Below, one piece after another: positions 27,545 to 63,661 of a stretch of DNA of 64,000 nucleotides. Position numbers and translations under genes: made by a program. Each line of letters starts with the position of its first letter. The first letter of the stretch is position 1. Source of the stretch: Brevibacillus agri (lineage in GTDB: Bacteria > Bacillota > Bacilli > Brevibacillales > Brevibacillaceae). A model generated the notes under the pieces. It had not been told where the DNA came from and did not search any database. It saw nothing but the letters and a program-made list of their open reading frames with translations. The stretch spans positions 4,673,001-4,737,000 of the forward strand of contig NZ_CP026363.1 in the NCBI RefSeq assembly GCF_004117055.1, read 5' to 3'.

Positions 27545-29893
27545 TCAGCCGACGTTTACTTCCAAATCTTCTATCGGTTTTTCCTTGTATTTCAAATCTT
27601 TATTAGCAGTGAACGAATCCGCCTTTTCGATCTTCACTGCCGTATTGTATTCCGGGATACCCGCGAACGCTTCGTACACGCCTTTTGGAATCAGCACGTT
27701 TCCTTCCGGCCAGTACACCTGGATATTCCCTCTTCTCGTATCTTCAAACTTGGCGCGCCCTTGGTAGGTGCCATAGCTATTATACACGACAATCGTTTCG
27801 CCTTCCGCAATGCGCAGTTCCCGCGCGTCTTCCGGATTGATTAAAATATCGTAGCGATCCGCGTTGTTGAACGGGTCTTTGTTGCTGTAGATCATCGAGT
27901 TGAACTGCTTGCCGCGGCGGGTGGTCACGTAAAAATGCCCTTCCGGCTTGTCAAGCTGCGGAATTTCGATCGGCAGCAGATTCGCTCGGCCGTCTGGCGT
28001 CGGGCACACTCCGTCCTCGCACAGCCAGGCCCCTCCCCATTGAAACACATCTCCGCGTTTTTTCAAATGCTGGATGCCGTCGTAGTTCGGATTCGCCTGC
28101 GCGATTTCCGCACGAATTTCCTCCGCGCTGGCAAAATGCATGAGGTGCTTTTTGTCCGGATGCACGCGCGCAGCCAAATCGACGTAAATCTGCCACTCGG
28201 CCCGCGCCTCTTCAATCCGTGGTCCCTCGATCTCGGCGCTGAAGTACACCATCCGCTCCGTACTGGTCGACGTGCCGCCGCCCGGCTGCTCGTAGCGCGT
28301 CATCGCCGGCAGGACGATTACCTCTTCCTTGGCATCGACGAGGGTAGACGTGTTGAAAATGATGTCCTGATGGACGCGCAGCTCGACATTCTCCAAACAT
28401 TTTTCCATGAAGTCAGGGTCAGGCATCGTCTCCAGGAAGTTGCCGCCGCTCGTGTAAAACAGCCGCGTCTTGCGCTCGTGTCCATCGGGCAGCAGGGCGT
28501 TTTCGAGCGAGATGCCGACAATATCGCCTTGCCATTTCGGGATCGGGAACTTCCACAGCTTTTCGATTCTCGTCCAGTTCTTTTCGTCAAAATCGCCGCC
28601 AGGCAAGCTGAACGGGTCCGCTCCCATCTCCCCGGAGCCTTGCACGCCGGAGTGGCCGCGAATCGGCATCACGCCGCAGTGCTTCCGGCCCAAAAAGCCG
28701 CGCAGAATCGCCAGATTGGCAACGGAGGAAATGTTGTCGGTCCCAAAGCGGTGCTGGGTCAGTCCCATGCTCCATACAAATACGCCTGATTTGGCATTGG
28801 CGAGCAAAAGCGCAAATTCTTTCAGCCGCTCCCTGCTCAAGCCAGAGGATTGCTCGATCTGATCCCACGGCAGATTGGTCACATGCCCCCGCAGCTCCTC
28901 GATGCCGTTTGCATGCTCCCGGACAAACTCGCGGTTGATCGCCGAGCCCGGATTGGCCTCCTCCATCTCAAACCAGTGCTTCATCACGCCGTTCATGAAG
29001 GCGATGTCGCCGCCGATGTTGACCTGGTAAAAATCGTCCGCGAGCTTCGTGCCGAACACAGCGCTCTCCGGCACCGACGGAATCCAGTATTTTTCCATCG
29101 CCGGCTCTTTGTAAGGGTTAATCAGGATGATCTTCGTTCCCGCTTTTTTGGCCGCGTACATGTACTTCGTGGAGACAGGCTGGTTGTTCGCCGGAACCGA
29201 GCCGAAGAAGACGAGCACATCCGTGCCGATCCAGTCCTGGTAGTTGCAGCTCGACGCCCCGATGCCAAGCGACCGCTTCAAGGCTGTCTTGCTCGGCGAG
29301 TGGCAAATGCGGGAGGCGTTGTCGATGTTGTTCGTCCCCAGAAAACGGGCCATTTTTGCCGCCGTATAGTACACTTCGTTAGTAATTCCCCGCGCAGTCA
29401 AGAAAAACGCGAGCTGCTTAGGACTGATGCCTTTGATCTTGTTCGCGATCCGGTCCAGAGCGTCGTTCCAACTGATCCGCGTGAATTTGTTTTCGCCCGG
29501 CTTGCGCGACAGCGGATAAGGAATCCTGCCCAGCTTGCGCAGCTCCACGCTCGACATCTGTTTTAGAGCGCTTACATCTTCGAGCCATTTGTCATCCATG
29601 GCAGGCATTGTATTGAGGCGCAGCACGTTCAGGCGCGTCGTGCACAAATGCGGGCCTGTGAGAGTCTGGTCGTACAGACCGGATACGCCGAGCGCGCAGC
29701 CGTCGCATACTCCCTGGGTCAAAATCCGGTAGGCGTAACCGAGGTTGTCCCGATTGTCATACACGACCTTCATCGTGTCGAGTATGTGATGCGGCTTGAT
29801 TTTGCCAAGTCCCATGGGCATCATGGAAGCCCACAGGGAAGGCTTCAGCGACGTATCCAGCTTGACTGGTCCCTTATGCTTGGTCTTCCCCAT
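27545..29893 (-). CDS. FdhF/YdeP-type molybdopterin oxidoreductase
   Basis: 782 residues of the molybdopterin oxidoreductase superfamily, closest to the YdeP/FdhA-like group often annotated as formate dehydrogenase alpha subunit. N-terminal cysteines (GVCDGCALG, LCTTRLN) could bind an Fe-S cluster; KIKGISPKQLAFFLTARG, WTRIEKLWKFP and the C-terminal dinucleotide-binding domain (MIYSNKDPFNNADRYDILIN) follow. Formate or another substrate cannot be settled from sequence. I chose ATG 29893 (GAGGAG upstream); the frame stays open for 137 more codons upstream, but that stretch overlaps the DUF2294 gene and a terminator. It lies between the DUF2294 gene and moeA. Confidence 0.88.
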   Translation of the reverse strand: MGKTKHKGPVKLDTSLKPSLWASMMPMGLGKIKPHHILDTMKVVYDNRDNLGYAYRILTQGVCDGCALGVSGLYDQTLTGPHLCTTRLNVLRLNTMPAMDDKWLEDVSALKQMSSVELRKLGRIPYPLSRKPGENKFTRISWNDALDRIANKIKGISPKQLAFFLTARGITNEVYYTAAKMARFLGTNNIDNASRICHSPSKTALKRSLGIGASSCNYQDWIGTDVLVFFGSVPANNQPVSTKYMYAAKKAGTKIILINPYKEPAMEKYWIPSVPESAVFGTKLADDFYQVNIGGDIAFMNGVMKHWFEMEEANPGSAINREFVREHANGIEELRGHVTNLPWDQIEQSSGLSRERLKEFALLLANAKSGVFVWSMGLTQHRFGTDNISSVANLAILRGFLGRKHCGVMPIRGHSGVQGSGEMGADPFSLPGGDFDEKNWTRIEKLWKFPIPKWQGDIVGISLENALLPDGHERKTRLFYTSGGNFLETMPDPDFMEKCLENVELRVHQDIIFNTSTLVDAKEEVIVLPAMTRYEQPGGGTSTSTERMVYFSAEIEGPRIEEARAEWQIYVDLAARVHPDKKHLMHFASAEEIRAEIAQANPNYDGIQHLKKRGDVFQWGGAWLCEDGVCPTPDGRANLLPIEIPQLDKPEGHFYVTTRRGKQFNSMIYSNKDPFNNADRYDILINPEDARELRIAEGETIVVYNSYGTYQGRAKFEDTRRGNIQVYWPEGNVLIPKGVYEAFAGIPEYNTAVKIEKADSFTANKDLKYKEKPIEDLEVNVG

Positions 29894-29932
29894 TGGTTTT
29901 TTCGCTCCTCTCTTGTCAAACACCCTGAGACT

Positions 29933-30089
29933 AAAAAACCACCATGAAACCGTCCCTGATTCCCAAAGGAAGAGAGCGTGTTCACGGTGGTTGTCTAAAG
30001 GCAGGTTCGCTACCCAAGTCTCAACGTCGTGTTTGCTTGCGAAGTCCGCTTTGTCTAACCGGTGAACAGGAACGCTGCTTCGCTTAGAC
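29933..30089 (-). promoter_or_regulatory. Leader L2: candidate regulatory RNA and terminator before the oxidoreductase
   Basis: The space between the DUF2294 gene and the oxidoreductase contains AGCGTTCCTG (30076-30067), AGCGAACCTG (30011-30002) and then a hairpin ACCACCGTGAA/TTTCATGGTGGT with six T (29992-29933). Only 40 bases separate the T run from the start codon, too little for a new promoter, so it reads as an attenuator inside the operon. A GTCTAA/TTAGAC stem encloses the first motif. Leader L1 (31853-32045) has the same two motifs with AA and TT exchanged. Confidence 0.5.
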
Positions 30090-30455
30090 TTACGGTTCGT
30101 TTTTCCATTTTTTCTCGATGTCCTGATCGAAAACAAAGATGGACATCCCAAAATCACGTTCAATGTCAATGTCGACGAACAGGTCGACGAGTTTTGCGCC
30201 CAGAAACGCTTCCATGTCAACTGGCTGGTGTTTCCGATACATCTCCTTGACCATTTCGGTTCTGGCAGCTCGTAGTGTCTGCTTTCCATCTTCCGAAGTG
30301 GCAATGAACTTTTCCACCGGCGAAAGATTGCCCTCCATTTCGCAGATCGCCCAGTTTTTGCAAAACGTGGTGCTGATCTTGCTAGGTCCTTTCCCCATAT
30401 GGCGCTTCCGGAAAGCTCTGACCAAATTACTGAACTCTGCTTCGAACTTATTCAT
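30090..30455 (-). CDS. DUF2294 domain protein
   Basis: 121 residues. FEAEFSNLVRAFRKRHMGKG at the N-terminus, VDMEAFLGAKLVDLFVDID and FGMSIFVFDQDIE near the end match DUF2294 proteins, which in Bacillales often lie next to formate dehydrogenase-like genes. Function unknown. AAAGGTGAG precedes the ATG. It lies 52 bases after the MFS gene and upstream of leader L2, in the same apparent operon. Confidence 0.82.
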   Translation of the reverse strand: MNKFEAEFSNLVRAFRKRHMGKGPSKISTTFCKNWAICEMEGNLSPVEKFIATSEDGKQTLRAARTEMVKEMYRKHQPVDMEAFLGAKLVDLFVDIDIERDFGMSIFVFDQDIEKKWKNEP

Positions 30456-30507
30456 CGACGGTACTCACCTTTATTCCAATCATTCTCTACTAAGACTTTA
30501 CCATTGA

Positions 30508-31785
30508 TTAACTAGCCAATTCAACTGACTTTTCTCTTTGTCTGGCTTCTTCCTTCAATTTTTTAATATCCAACCGGATTAAGAGGGAAATAAAGAAGGC
30601 TACAATGAACATCGCAGCGAACACGCTCATCGTTCCTGTGTAGCTTTGCGTCGTCTCGCGCACCCATGCGGCGAAGATCGGGCCTGCCAGCCCTGCCGCC
30701 GCCCATGCGGTCAAAATGTAGCCGTGAATCGCCCCGAGCTGGCGCGTGCCAAACAGGTCGCCAATGTAGGCAGGAATCGAGGCGAAGCCGCCTCCGTAGC
30801 AGGTCATGATGATGAACATCGCGATCATGAACAGCACCGGGTTGCTCATGTTCGGCAACAGGAAGAACAGCACCATCTGGATCGCGAAGAAAGCCGTGTA
30901 CGTATTCGCCCGCCCGATGTAGTCAGACAGCGAAGCCCAGCCGATTCGTCCGCCGCCATTGAACAAGCCGTTCAGGCCCACCATCAGCGCAGCGGTTTGC
31001 ACGGACATGCCGACCATTTCCTGCGCCATCGGCGAAGCGACGGAGATGACAGCAATTCCACAAGTCACGTTGATGAACAGCATCAGCCACAGCCAGTAAA
31101 AACGGCGCGTCTTGATCGCTTCGTTGGCGGTAAGCTGGCACAAGTCTTTTTTGATTTGCTTGTCGCCTGCTGCCCCTTCGGTCGAAAAACCTGCGGGCAC
31201 CCAGCCTTTTGGCGGCGGAGACAAATATTGCGCAGATGCAAACATGACGACGAAATAAATGATACCTAAAATGTAAAAGGTGTTCGCAATGCCGACACTC
31301 TCAATCAGCGCGTTCATGATCGGGCTGGCGATCATCGAAGCGAAGCCAAAGCCCATGATCGCAAGTCCTGTCGCCAGTCCGCGGCGATCCGGGAACCACT
31401 TCACAAGCGTAGACACCGGGGTAATATACCCGACCCCAAGGCCGATTCCGCCCAGCACGCCATAACAAATGTACAAAAGCGGCAAGCTGGCAAGCTGGAT
31501 GGCAAGCCCGGAGCCGACAATCCCGACGCCGAAAAAGATCGAGGCGAGCGTTCCCGCTTTTCGCGGCCCGTGCTTTTCTACGTAGTGTCCGAGAAAAGCC
31601 GCGGACAGCCCGAGAAACAAAATCGCGATGCTGAAAGTGAACTGCACATCGGGCAGTTCCCAGCCAAATTGCTGGGTGATCGGCTTGGTAAATACACTCC
31701 ACGCGTACACCGATCCAATCGAGATGTGGATCCCCACCGCAGCCAGTGCAATCAGCCAACGGTTTTTCACTTGTTGCTCCATCAT
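30508..31785 (-). CDS. MFS transporter, oxalate/formate antiporter (OFA) family
   Basis: About 425 residues with twelve helices. The N-terminus RWLIALAAVGIHISIGSVYA and GVLGGIGLGVGYITPVSTLV match OFA-type MFS carriers, which exchange or take up small carboxylates. Position at the head of a formate-dehydrogenase/molybdenum operon suggests formate or a related anion, an inference. ATG 31785 has AGGAG six bases upstream; ATG 31782 is a near alternative. Transcription must pass leader L1 first. Confidence 0.85.
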   Translation of the reverse strand: MMEQQVKNRWLIALAAVGIHISIGSVYAWSVFTKPITQQFGWELPDVQFTFSIAILFLGLSAAFLGHYVEKHGPRKAGTLASIFFGVGIVGSGLAIQLASLPLLYICYGVLGGIGLGVGYITPVSTLVKWFPDRRGLATGLAIMGFGFASMIASPIMNALIESVGIANTFYILGIIYFVVMFASAQYLSPPPKGWVPAGFSTEGAAGDKQIKKDLCQLTANEAIKTRRFYWLWLMLFINVTCGIAVISVASPMAQEMVGMSVQTAALMVGLNGLFNGGGRIGWASLSDYIGRANTYTAFFAIQMVLFFLLPNMSNPVLFMIAMFIIMTCYGGGFASIPAYIGDLFGTRQLGAIHGYILTAWAAAGLAGPIFAAWVRETTQSYTGTMSVFAAMFIVAFFISLLIRLDIKKLKEEARQREKSVELAS

Positions 31786-31852
31786 GTTCATCTCCTTTAA
31801 AATGGTCTTGGTTGGAATGAAGCCCAATCACTGGTGCGCCACTCCGAAAGCA

Positions 31853-32045
31853 AAAAGAAAAACTGCTGATTTCATCGACACCCCCCGCTTTTTCCGCACA
31901 CACGGAAACAAAGGTATCAATGAAACACAGCAGTTAATCATCAGCAGGAACGCTACGTCAGCATCAACAAGCACGTGCCATCGTATTCAATTGGTGATTC
32001 ACAGCGAGAGATTCGGTGACAGGTTCGCTGTTCCGTGTCTTTTCG
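31853..32045 (-). promoter_or_regulatory. Leader L1: candidate regulatory RNA and terminator before the MFS gene
   Basis: On the minus strand AGCGAACCTG (32029-32020) is followed, 65 bases later, by AGCGTTCCTG (31954-31945), then by a long hairpin: outer arms AACTGCTG/CAGCAGTT (31935-31928 and 31868-31861), inner TTTCAT/ATGAAA and TTTCCG/CGGAAA, ending in TTTTTCTTTTT. A weak TATAGA -10 lies near 32050, placing the transcript start just before the first motif. The motif order AA-then-TT is the reverse of leader L2, as expected if the central bases pair. Confidence 0.5.
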
Positions 32046-32084
32046 CTCTATACGCGCAGGAAGTTACTGAAAGTAGAAAATTTT

Positions 32085-32113
32085 ATGACACTTTCACCCT
32101 CACATAGTATACT
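32085..32113 (+). promoter_or_regulatory. SigA-type promoter of fdhD
   Basis: ATGACA (32085-32090), 17-base spacer, TATACT (32108-32113), 95 bases before the fdhD start. Confidence 0.65.
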
Positions 32114-32207
32114 ACCATGTAAGCGCTCACTCGACAATATTTTCTCTGTCAAAATCTATTCACAACTTGTCATTTCTCCACGCATGAACATGATACGGGA
32201 GGTTCGC

Positions 32208-33005
32208 ATGTCAAAACTGAGCAAAACAACCCGCCTGCGCGTCCTGAAAGTGACGGCTGACCAGCACCACTGGGAAGACGACGAGATCGTCACGGAGTAC
32301 CCGCTCACGATTTTTCTCAATGACGAAGAGTTCGCCACCGTCGTCTGCACGCCAGCCGATCTGGACGAGATGGTGATCGGTTTTCTCGCAGCGGAGGGAG
32401 CCATCCAAAGCTTCGGGGAGATCAGGCAGATCACGATAGACGAGGCAAAAGGGCTGGCCTACGTAGACCTGCACAAAGAAACGATTTTGTCCCAGAGCTT
32501 TTACTCCAAGCGCAGAATTACGTCGTGCTGCGGCAAAAGCAGACAGTCCTTCTACTTTTTCAGCGATGCCCGCACAGCAAAGCCGGCGAGCGGCACCACC
32601 ACCGTCACCTCTGCCCAATGCACCAGACTCATGGACGAGTTGCAAGCCTCCTCCGTTATCCATCAGCAGACAGGAGGCGTTCACAACGCGGCTCTGTGCA
32701 CGCCTGACCAAGTTCTCTTGCAATATTCGGATATCGGACGCCACAACGCGCTGGACAAAATTTACGGGAAGTGCTTGCGGGATAATATCTCGACCGCGGA
32801 CAAGATTCTCGTGTTCAGCGGACGGCTCTCGTCTGAAGTTTTGTTGAAAGCCGCCAAGATCGGCGCAGGCATCATCCTGTCCAAATCGGCTCCGACCGAC
32901 CTCGCCCTGCAACTGGCAGAGGAACTGCAAATCACGGCCGTCGGCTTCATCCGCCAAAACAAAATGAATGTGTACACGCATCCGGAGCGGATCATTTTGC
33001 CCTAG
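32208..33005 (+). CDS. fdhD: Formate dehydrogenase accessory sulfurtransferase
   Basis: 265 residues. The conserved loop ITSCCGKSRQSF carries the two cysteines (about 105) used to pass sulfur from a desulfurase to the molybdenum cofactor of formate dehydrogenase; LNDEEFATVVCTPADLDEMV, TGGVHNAALC and DIGRHNALDKI are further FdhD signatures. GGGAGG precedes ATG 32208. It is divergent from the MFS-oxidoreductase operon, whose enzyme is its likely client, and converges with mobA. Confidence 0.94.
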   Translation: MSKLSKTTRLRVLKVTADQHHWEDDEIVTEYPLTIFLNDEEFATVVCTPADLDEMVIGFLAAEGAIQSFGEIRQITIDEAKGLAYVDLHKETILSQSFYSKRRITSCCGKSRQSFYFFSDARTAKPASGTTTVTSAQCTRLMDELQASSVIHQQTGGVHNAALCTPDQVLLQYSDIGRHNALDKIYGKCLRDNISTADKILVFSGRLSSEVLLKAAKIGAGIILSKSAPTDLALQLAEELQITAVGFIRQNKMNVYTHPERIILP

Positions 33006-49689: not shown

Positions 49690-50075
49690 GGAAGCTCTAC
49701 CCGTGGTCGCAGAAGAACACGTTAAAAAATGCCTCGGCGTTCATCAGCCGAATGTGGTCATGTAAACCTCTTACATGAACGAAGTCGCGTTAAAGGCGGG
49801 ACAGGATAAGTGTGTCCTGTGATGAAGGACGCATTTCCCCAGATTTTCCGTCGTAGTGTCCGTTTGGACAGGGAACCTTGACAGAGTGATGGTTTCAACC
49901 ATCCACGCAGTAAAGCTACACCTGGGTGCGTTTGATGTCATGTAGGCTCTGGATACCTCAACCTCACAGCCTAGTTTGTTCTCCCTCGTAAGAGGGGGAA
50001 CGCTCTGTTGTCCTCCCCTCACATGGATGAACTCCCCGCCCTGCGGAGCGGGGCGGGGGTGAGAAGCAGCGAGCC
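49690..50075 (-). ncRNA. Hairpin-rich no-ORF region, candidate structured RNA
   Basis: About 390 bases with no credible gene and at least eight short perfect stems in series: TCGGC/GCCGA, TCATGTAA/TTACATGA, ACAGGA/TCCTGT, TGTCC/GGACA, GATGGTT/AACCATC, CACC/GGTG, TCCCTC/GAGGGA and CCCCGCCC/GGGGCGGGG. On the minus strand it begins with a GC-rich hairpin and ends before the terminator at 49458. The pattern resembles guide-RNA scaffolds of IscB/TnpB elements (HEARO/omega RNA), but no nuclease gene is present. Could also be an intron relic. Confidence 0.35.
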
Positions 50076-63430: not shown

Positions 63431-63474
63431 TGATAAATAAATCAATTTCATACATGTTATCCTCATCATTCACG

Positions 63475-63661
63475 GTGAGGGTAGAGGTCGCGGCTTTTAT
63501 GTCATCCTGTACGAGATTCAGAAGAAATCAATGACTCCAGGAAAGGGAAAAGCCGCCGAAGCTCATGGCGTATCTCTGTGCGCATGGGCTGGGGCTGTAC
63601 CCGAAAGGGACAGAACTGTCACGTTTGCTTGCCGGGCAAACGTGGTGTGCTATCTTCAGTG
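63475..63661 (+). promoter_or_regulatory. Lysine riboswitch (L box)
   Basis: Conserved blocks in order: GGTGAGGGTAGAGGTCGCGG, AGGAAAGGGAAAAGCCGCCG with AAGC, TGGGCTGGGG, and TGTGCTATCTTCAG closing P1. These are the L-box core features known from lysC. Lysine binding is expected to favour the terminator that follows, so lysine lowers permease expression. Confidence 0.9.

Follow-up and report, generated by a model that had tools for sequence, protein, structure and literature searches.

The RAT targets of the LicT/SacY/BglG systems are single hairpins of ~30 nt with internal loops that overlap a terminator, and the regulator gene is found in the same operon. The dual-hairpin targets of ANTAR proteins (EutV/NasR/AmiR) consist, according to the excerpts of PMC3369931, of small hairpins that have conserved terminal loops and precede an intrinsic terminator, with the distal hairpin lying at its 5' base; they obey the rule of a hexaloop with A in first and G in fourth position. 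A riboswitch class is also described upstream of molybdenum-cofactor and Moco-enzyme genes, namely the Moco RNA (RF01055), for which the excerpts of PMC2408646 give five paired elements together with a GNRA tetraloop and its receptor.

The window, i.e. the whole 64-kb stretch of DNA analyzed here, carries on its minus strand an operon in the order MFS, DUF2294/MpsC, FdhF/YdeP-family oxidoreductase, followed by moeA- and mobB-type genes (Table 1). The 121-aa product of this operon is a clear member of PF10057 (114.4 bits vs. a gathering cut-off of 23). Leader A, designated L1 in an earlier note on this DNA, lies upstream of MFS, and leader B (L2) precedes FdhF, starting directly 3' of the DUF2294 stop codon. 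Upstream of leader A, a sequence GAGTGAGCGCTTACAT (32132-32117, minus strand) resembles a CcpA cre box; a near copy is also found ahead of the leader at locus L019. Both leaders resemble conditional terminators, of a type that Rfam does not contain. They share with the RAT systems a hairpin with internal loops overlapping a terminator and a proposed regulator gene in the same operon, but differ in the letters of the hairpin and in that tandem hairpins are common; a Pfam scan of seven neighboring proteins yielded no CAT/PRD-type regulator. With the ANTAR targets of PMC3369931 they have in common the small size of the hairpins, their position ahead of an intrinsic terminator with the distal hairpin at its 5' base, and conserved terminal loops, whereas the loop is CGNNC here and the hairpin often single. 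The gene context recalls that of the Moco riboswitch, unlike the architecture (excerpts of PMC2408646).

Table 1 Genes and predicted RNA structures of the operon and its divergent neighbor (window coordinates)
Feature	Position	Strand	Basis or remark
FdhF/YdeP-family molybdopterin oxidoreductase	27545..29893	(-)	TIGR01701, above cut-off
Leader B intrinsic terminator	29933..29992	(-)	AACCACCGUGAA...GGUGGUUUUUU
Leader B distal hairpin (proposed antiterminator)	29990..30025	(-)	GUUG...GGGUAG[CGAAC]CUGCC...CAAC
Leader B proximal hairpin	30053..30089	(-)	GUCUAA...GCAG[CGUUC]CUGU...UUAGAC; inner stem from alignment
DUF2294/MpsC (PF10057) gene, 121 aa	30090..30455	(-)	Pfam match; proposed trans-acting RNA-binding antiterminator
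MFS monocarboxylate transporter	30508..31788	(-)	NF049980, above cut-off
Leader A intrinsic terminator	31854..31935	(-)	AACUGCUG...CAGCAGUU + T run
Leader A distal hairpin (proposed antiterminator)	31933..31968	(-)	GUUGAU...GUAG[CGUUC]CUGC...AUUAAC
Leader A proximal hairpin	32003..32047	(-)	outer stem AGCGA/UCGCU, CGG/CCG, ACAG[CGAAC]CUGU; alignment + consensus fold
fdhD, divergent neighbor	32208..33005	(+)	TIGR00129

On the minus strand, leader A contains the motifs AGCGAACCTG (32029-32020) and AGCGTTCCTG (31954-31945), which occur in reverse order in leader B (AGCGTTCCTG at 30076-30067, AGCGAACCTG at 30011-30002). The earlier note had read these sequences and positions correctly, likewise the flanks TCACCG (L1) and TTCACCG (L2) after the first motif and GT before the second; each leader also ends, where it had placed a terminator, in a strong hairpin followed by a T run. 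These four motifs are the only exact matches to AGCGWWCCTG in the window, and 22 matches with at most one mismatch compare with 14.1 expected from shuffling (1 of 100 shuffles has as many). Both leaders fold more stably than 200 of 200 shuffled sequences (z -2.7 and -3.3). Aligned, they form two hairpins with the common loop YAG[CGNNC]CUG, the outer stem of the proximal hairpin in leader B being a reading by eye of a stretch that the single-sequence fold pairs differently. Distal hairpin and terminator compete for the same nucleotides: in leader A, AAC is common to the terminator and the hairpin 3' strand, and in leader B the terminator 5' arm overlaps the hairpin 3' strand. The mutual exclusivity that protein-dependent antitermination calls for was found at the hairpin base only; the upper part of the distal hairpin coexists with the terminator in the predicted fold of leader B.

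Searched with Rfam 15 at the gathering score, the whole window returned only two families, neither of them in a leader: a Lysine riboswitch at 63474-63660 (+; 95.5 bits) and an EGFOA sRNA at 49833-49943 (+; 76.3 bits). Lowering the threshold to E ≤ 10 within 29850-32250 added six chance-level matches, none to a related family and none to RF01055. A known Rfam class is ruled out by this outcome, in line with the earlier note, in which no riboswitch class had been recognized.

The structured leader with its terminator recurs in homologous operons. Leader A DNA was found in 25 of 41 genomes, the 25 being from the same genus and none of the 16 genomes from other families being positive. A covariance model (R1), for which leaders had been collected by DNA similarity and independently of DUF2294, located the element in 32 of 39 genomes of the family and in 36 of 398 of the class; a second model (R2), derived from leaders adjoining DUF2294 and run on genomes not chosen for DUF2294, located it in 50 of 398 class genomes at E ≤ 0.01. 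The element is present in several families of Bacilli. Under stricter filters and with few close relatives in the sample, a phylum-wide R2 search hit one of 279 genomes, the window's own. The usual order is leader A-MFS-DUF2294-leader B-FdhF with fdhD nearby, some genomes lacking MFS or FdhF. Other genes downstream of leaders are fdhD (L102 and kin), moeA (L130, L131), moaA (L108; 390.5 bits vs. a cut-off of 284.05) and the alpha subunit of a canonical formate dehydrogenase (L193, over cut-off; a further such frame in L053 scores just under it). Many leaders hold a lone hairpin of ~36 nt with a 5-nt loop, and tandem hairpins are also common. The best-conserved version of the distal unit reads GUUGGYACUUGGYAG[CGNNC]CUGCYAAAGRYUAACC, with the rest of the terminator 5' arm directly after.

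The stems of the distal units covary. Among leader-B units (alignment A7, 51 of 60 distinct units, 12 pairs), 6 pairs are changed on both sides, and 87.7% of cells are paired compared with at most 56.8% in slid controls; among leader-A units (A8, 46 of 54 distinct units), 28 cells are changed on both sides and 95.2% are paired vs. at most 57.5%. None of 500 shuffles reaches either count of double changes, although these shuffles ignore relatedness; near-duplicates and a few odd units had been dropped from both alignments by hand. This behavior is not extended to the loops. The earlier note had proposed that the GAAC and GUUC centers pair with each other and covary between leaders. Such pairing is present in the window but not kept in relatives: the two central pairs are broken in 7 and 11, respectively, of the 17 leaders in alignment A3 (22 were listed), and the two central loop letters vary freely. 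Among the 65 of 82 tandem leaders with 5-nt loops on both sides, 11 have complementary loops compared with a shuffle mean of 9.2 (600 of 2000 shuffles reach 11), and a kissing pair as a conserved feature is rejected on these two comparisons. Because the central pairs fail in relatives and complementarity is at about the shuffled level, the exchange of AA and TT between leaders A and B is, on the compared sequences, most likely chance.

Terminators were evaluated for 134 distal units, with one chance unit (L186:3433) omitted. A T-run terminator candidate follows 133 of them by a lenient rule, which is also passed by 949 of 2000 segments drawn at random from these loci; at -12 kcal/mol or better, 124 of 133 units qualify vs. 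310 of 2000 random segments. The terminator 5' arm starts 5-20 nt past CCUG in 117 of 133 units, compared with 112 of 441 strong background stems, and by a simple rule this arm and the hairpin 3' strand share at least 2 nt in 116 of 133 (less than 2 nt in the other 17). In 125 of 133 units the terminator is more stable than the distal hairpin (mean -25.2 vs. -10.7 kcal/mol). By sequence and predicted folding, the attenuator architecture of both leaders is well supported, and distal hairpin plus terminator is the predicted layout of an antiterminator that needs help. A terminator candidate behind nearly every unit would also be expected from ordinary terminators accompanied by a conserved passive hairpin, serving as RNA processing site or in fixed attenuation with no regulator involved. 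We regard this explanation as very improbable, since the letters of loop and internal loop are conserved across families whereas those of terminator loops are not, and since the element is absent where DUF2294 is absent. The single unit without a terminator candidate belongs to a leader A directly upstream of DUF2294 (L134:4900-5001), for which control may be exerted at translation.

DUF2294 homologues occur in 208 of 398 class genomes, with a gap in identity to the window protein separating a subfamily at 73% or above (47 genomes) from the rest at 55% or below; the alignment of this protein (A9) comprises the window DUF2294 and 58 of 71 distinct relatives. With R2 at E ≤ 0.01, the element was found in 47 of 47 genomes with the subfamily vs. 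3 of 351 without. Two of these three exceptions (G060 and G161) hold a DUF2294 of 47-50% identity in the gene cluster, and the third (G119, not among the genomes with DUF2294 matches) is a 25.5-bit match, about what chance predicts at that threshold. All 36 genomes positive with R1 contain the subfamily, and in each of the other 11 subfamily genomes the hairpin is located in the gene cluster of DUF2294.

Part of this co-occurrence is explained by linkage, because RNA and DUF2294 usually share one operon. Of 80 named subfamily loci, 68 carry the hairpin in their leaders; in the remaining 12, DUF2294 is divergent from fdhD, MFS and an FdhF orthologue are both missing there, and the leader zones contain no hairpin. 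A search of these 12 genomes detected the element in every one, always at an MFS-FdhF operon elsewhere, and wider flanks, fetched for seven of them, contained both leaders in all seven. In Cytobacillus oceanisediminis 2691 and Sporosarcina globispora DSM 4, DUF2294 and element are ~0.75 Mb apart on one contig. The 12 unlinked genomes may reflect one move, as they constitute one related group. Since the element is kept at a distant operon in these genomes, linkage alone no longer explains the pairing of RNA and DUF2294.

The main rival explanation is a true riboswitch, in which the hairpins bind formate, molybdate or Moco directly and DUF2294 is another pathway gene, accessory or enzymatic. Consistent with it, the genes behind the leaders, save MFS and DUF2294, are formate- or Moco-related (FdhF, Fdh alpha, fdhD, moaA, moeA), and the hairpins show conservation of their internal loops, with a fixed sequence in the loop. 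We nevertheless consider a riboswitch unlikely. One hairpin of ~36 nt with a 5-nt loop is small for a metabolite aptamer, and the distribution of the RNA is not that of the enzyme: FdhF orthologues (at least 65% identity) are encoded in 67 genomes, with the RNA in 40 of 40 that have the DUF2294 subfamily and in only 1 of 27 that do not (G161; FdhF upstream regions were also checked by pattern). Conversely, the seven subfamily genomes without an FdhF orthologue all keep the RNA (G011, G022, G042, G044, G045, G046, and G058), and the 12 genomes in which DUF2294 is no longer behind the RNA have retained both. On a tree of 48 FdhF proteins, built by a quick method from 22 of the 40 DUF2294-bearing and 26 of the 27 other genomes (G120 was omitted, its FdhF being in two pieces), DUF2294 presence changes at least nine times; in seven independent pairs on well-supported branches, the RNA changes in the same direction in 6.8 on average and never in the opposite one (median p 0.016, range 0.016-0.031). 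One genome without the subfamily (G106) preserves a relic of the hairpin 5' half directly before the FdhF ribosome-binding site, with 3' half and terminator gone, whereas its congener G092 kept DUF2294 and the full leader; the relic was read by eye and did not line up in the automatic alignment. Of the aptamer-terminator signature put forward in the earlier note, the conserved structured leader with terminator holds. An aptamer for a small molecule is possible but not the preferred interpretation, because the minimal element is a lone ~36-nt hairpin and tracks the DUF2294 gene instead of the formate enzyme.

Another known RNA-binding antiterminator, of ANTAR or BglG/LicT type, or a global factor could likewise bind the hairpins, leaving DUF2294 a merely modulating part. 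Paired hairpins with similar loops before a terminator resemble ANTAR targets, as these are described in the excerpts of PMC3369931, and the window's genome has one ANTAR match, located far away. We judge this alternative improbable: of the 164 loops of 82 tandem leaders, 162 read CGNNC or CGNNNC (the remaining two are TGCTC and TGTTC) and not the A1/G4 hexaloop of ANTAR targets, and the distribution of the RNA follows DUF2294. Moreover, among 10 RNA-bearing genomes, the ANTAR domain PF03861 scores over cut-off in five and below it in one, with no match in the other four. ANTAR control was rejected on the loop rule and on the missing ANTAR protein in several RNA-bearing genomes.

Taken from sequence comparison, the leaders are probably attenuators under protein-dependent antitermination, with DUF2294/MpsC as the trans-acting factor, and their mode of action may be analogous to ANTAR or LicT control. 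By default, the nascent RNA would form the terminator, and RNA polymerase would halt ahead of MFS-DUF2294 in the case of leader A and ahead of FdhF in that of leader B. A protein acting in trans, most probably the DUF2294/MpsC product of the same operon, would recognize the YAG[CGNNC]CUG loop together with the underlying internal loop and stabilize the distal hairpin down to its base, so that the terminator would lose its 5' arm and transcription would continue. The position of DUF2294 behind leader A in most species seen would imply autoregulation, and a signal related to formate or molybdenum cofactor would probably control the activity of the protein. We infer the binding of DUF2294, the direction of its effect (antitermination vs. 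enforced termination), and the signal. If this model is true, the short list of protein-dependent antiterminators gains a new RNA element that has a dedicated protein partner, and a family annotated only as DUF2294/MpsC acquires a testable function; how formate or molybdenum cofactor is sensed in Bacilli then becomes a question to pursue. The model is directly testable with a single small protein and a short RNA.

The structural model of DUF2294 is confident (pLDDT 92.5) and consists of a helix, two strands, three helices, two strands, and a helix. It revealed no recognized RNA-binding fold and no clear relative of known structure: the best E-value was 0.47 in a PDB sequence search and 0.016 in fold searches, where the best Z-score was 7.2 over 88 residues at 3.4 Å (FtsK). 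PF10057 is named after S. aureus mpsC, whose deletion caused no growth defect according to the excerpts of PMC6689103. The literature searched, mostly open-access and in excerpts, yielded neither an RNA role for DUF2294 nor a description of this element, and term look-ups in PMC11109978, PMC8632094, PMC2408646, and PMC12456014 returned no mention of either in the text covered.

More diverged DUF2294 genes, of ~55% identity, are followed in two loci (L111:5744-5776 and L112:5674-5712) by hairpins with other loops and the same GGUU...UAACC base overlapping the terminator; a typed pattern for this hairpin matched 1 of 10 genomes, the source itself. No such hairpin was seen in three loci with DUF2294 at 45-50% identity (L114, L115, and L116), the last being the second, 45%-identical DUF2294 of the window's genome, which adjoins another fdhD and moeA. 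It is quite possible, though somewhat less likely than not, that DUF2294/MpsC is a new RNA-binding antitermination family, in which the subfamily would read YAG[CGNNC]CUG hairpins for formate and molybdenum genes and diverged members would read others; the widespread uncharacterized DUF2294 genes would then be regulators. In G060, two tandem DUF2294 genes are followed by the hairpin, which appears again before an Fdh gene. A tandem pair of DUF2294 genes is also situated ahead of MFS in another locus (L113:5329-6057). In genome G020 (L064:7133-7434), most of the MFS gene and the leader A terminator are apparently deleted, and the DUF2294 frame also seems shortened at its start.
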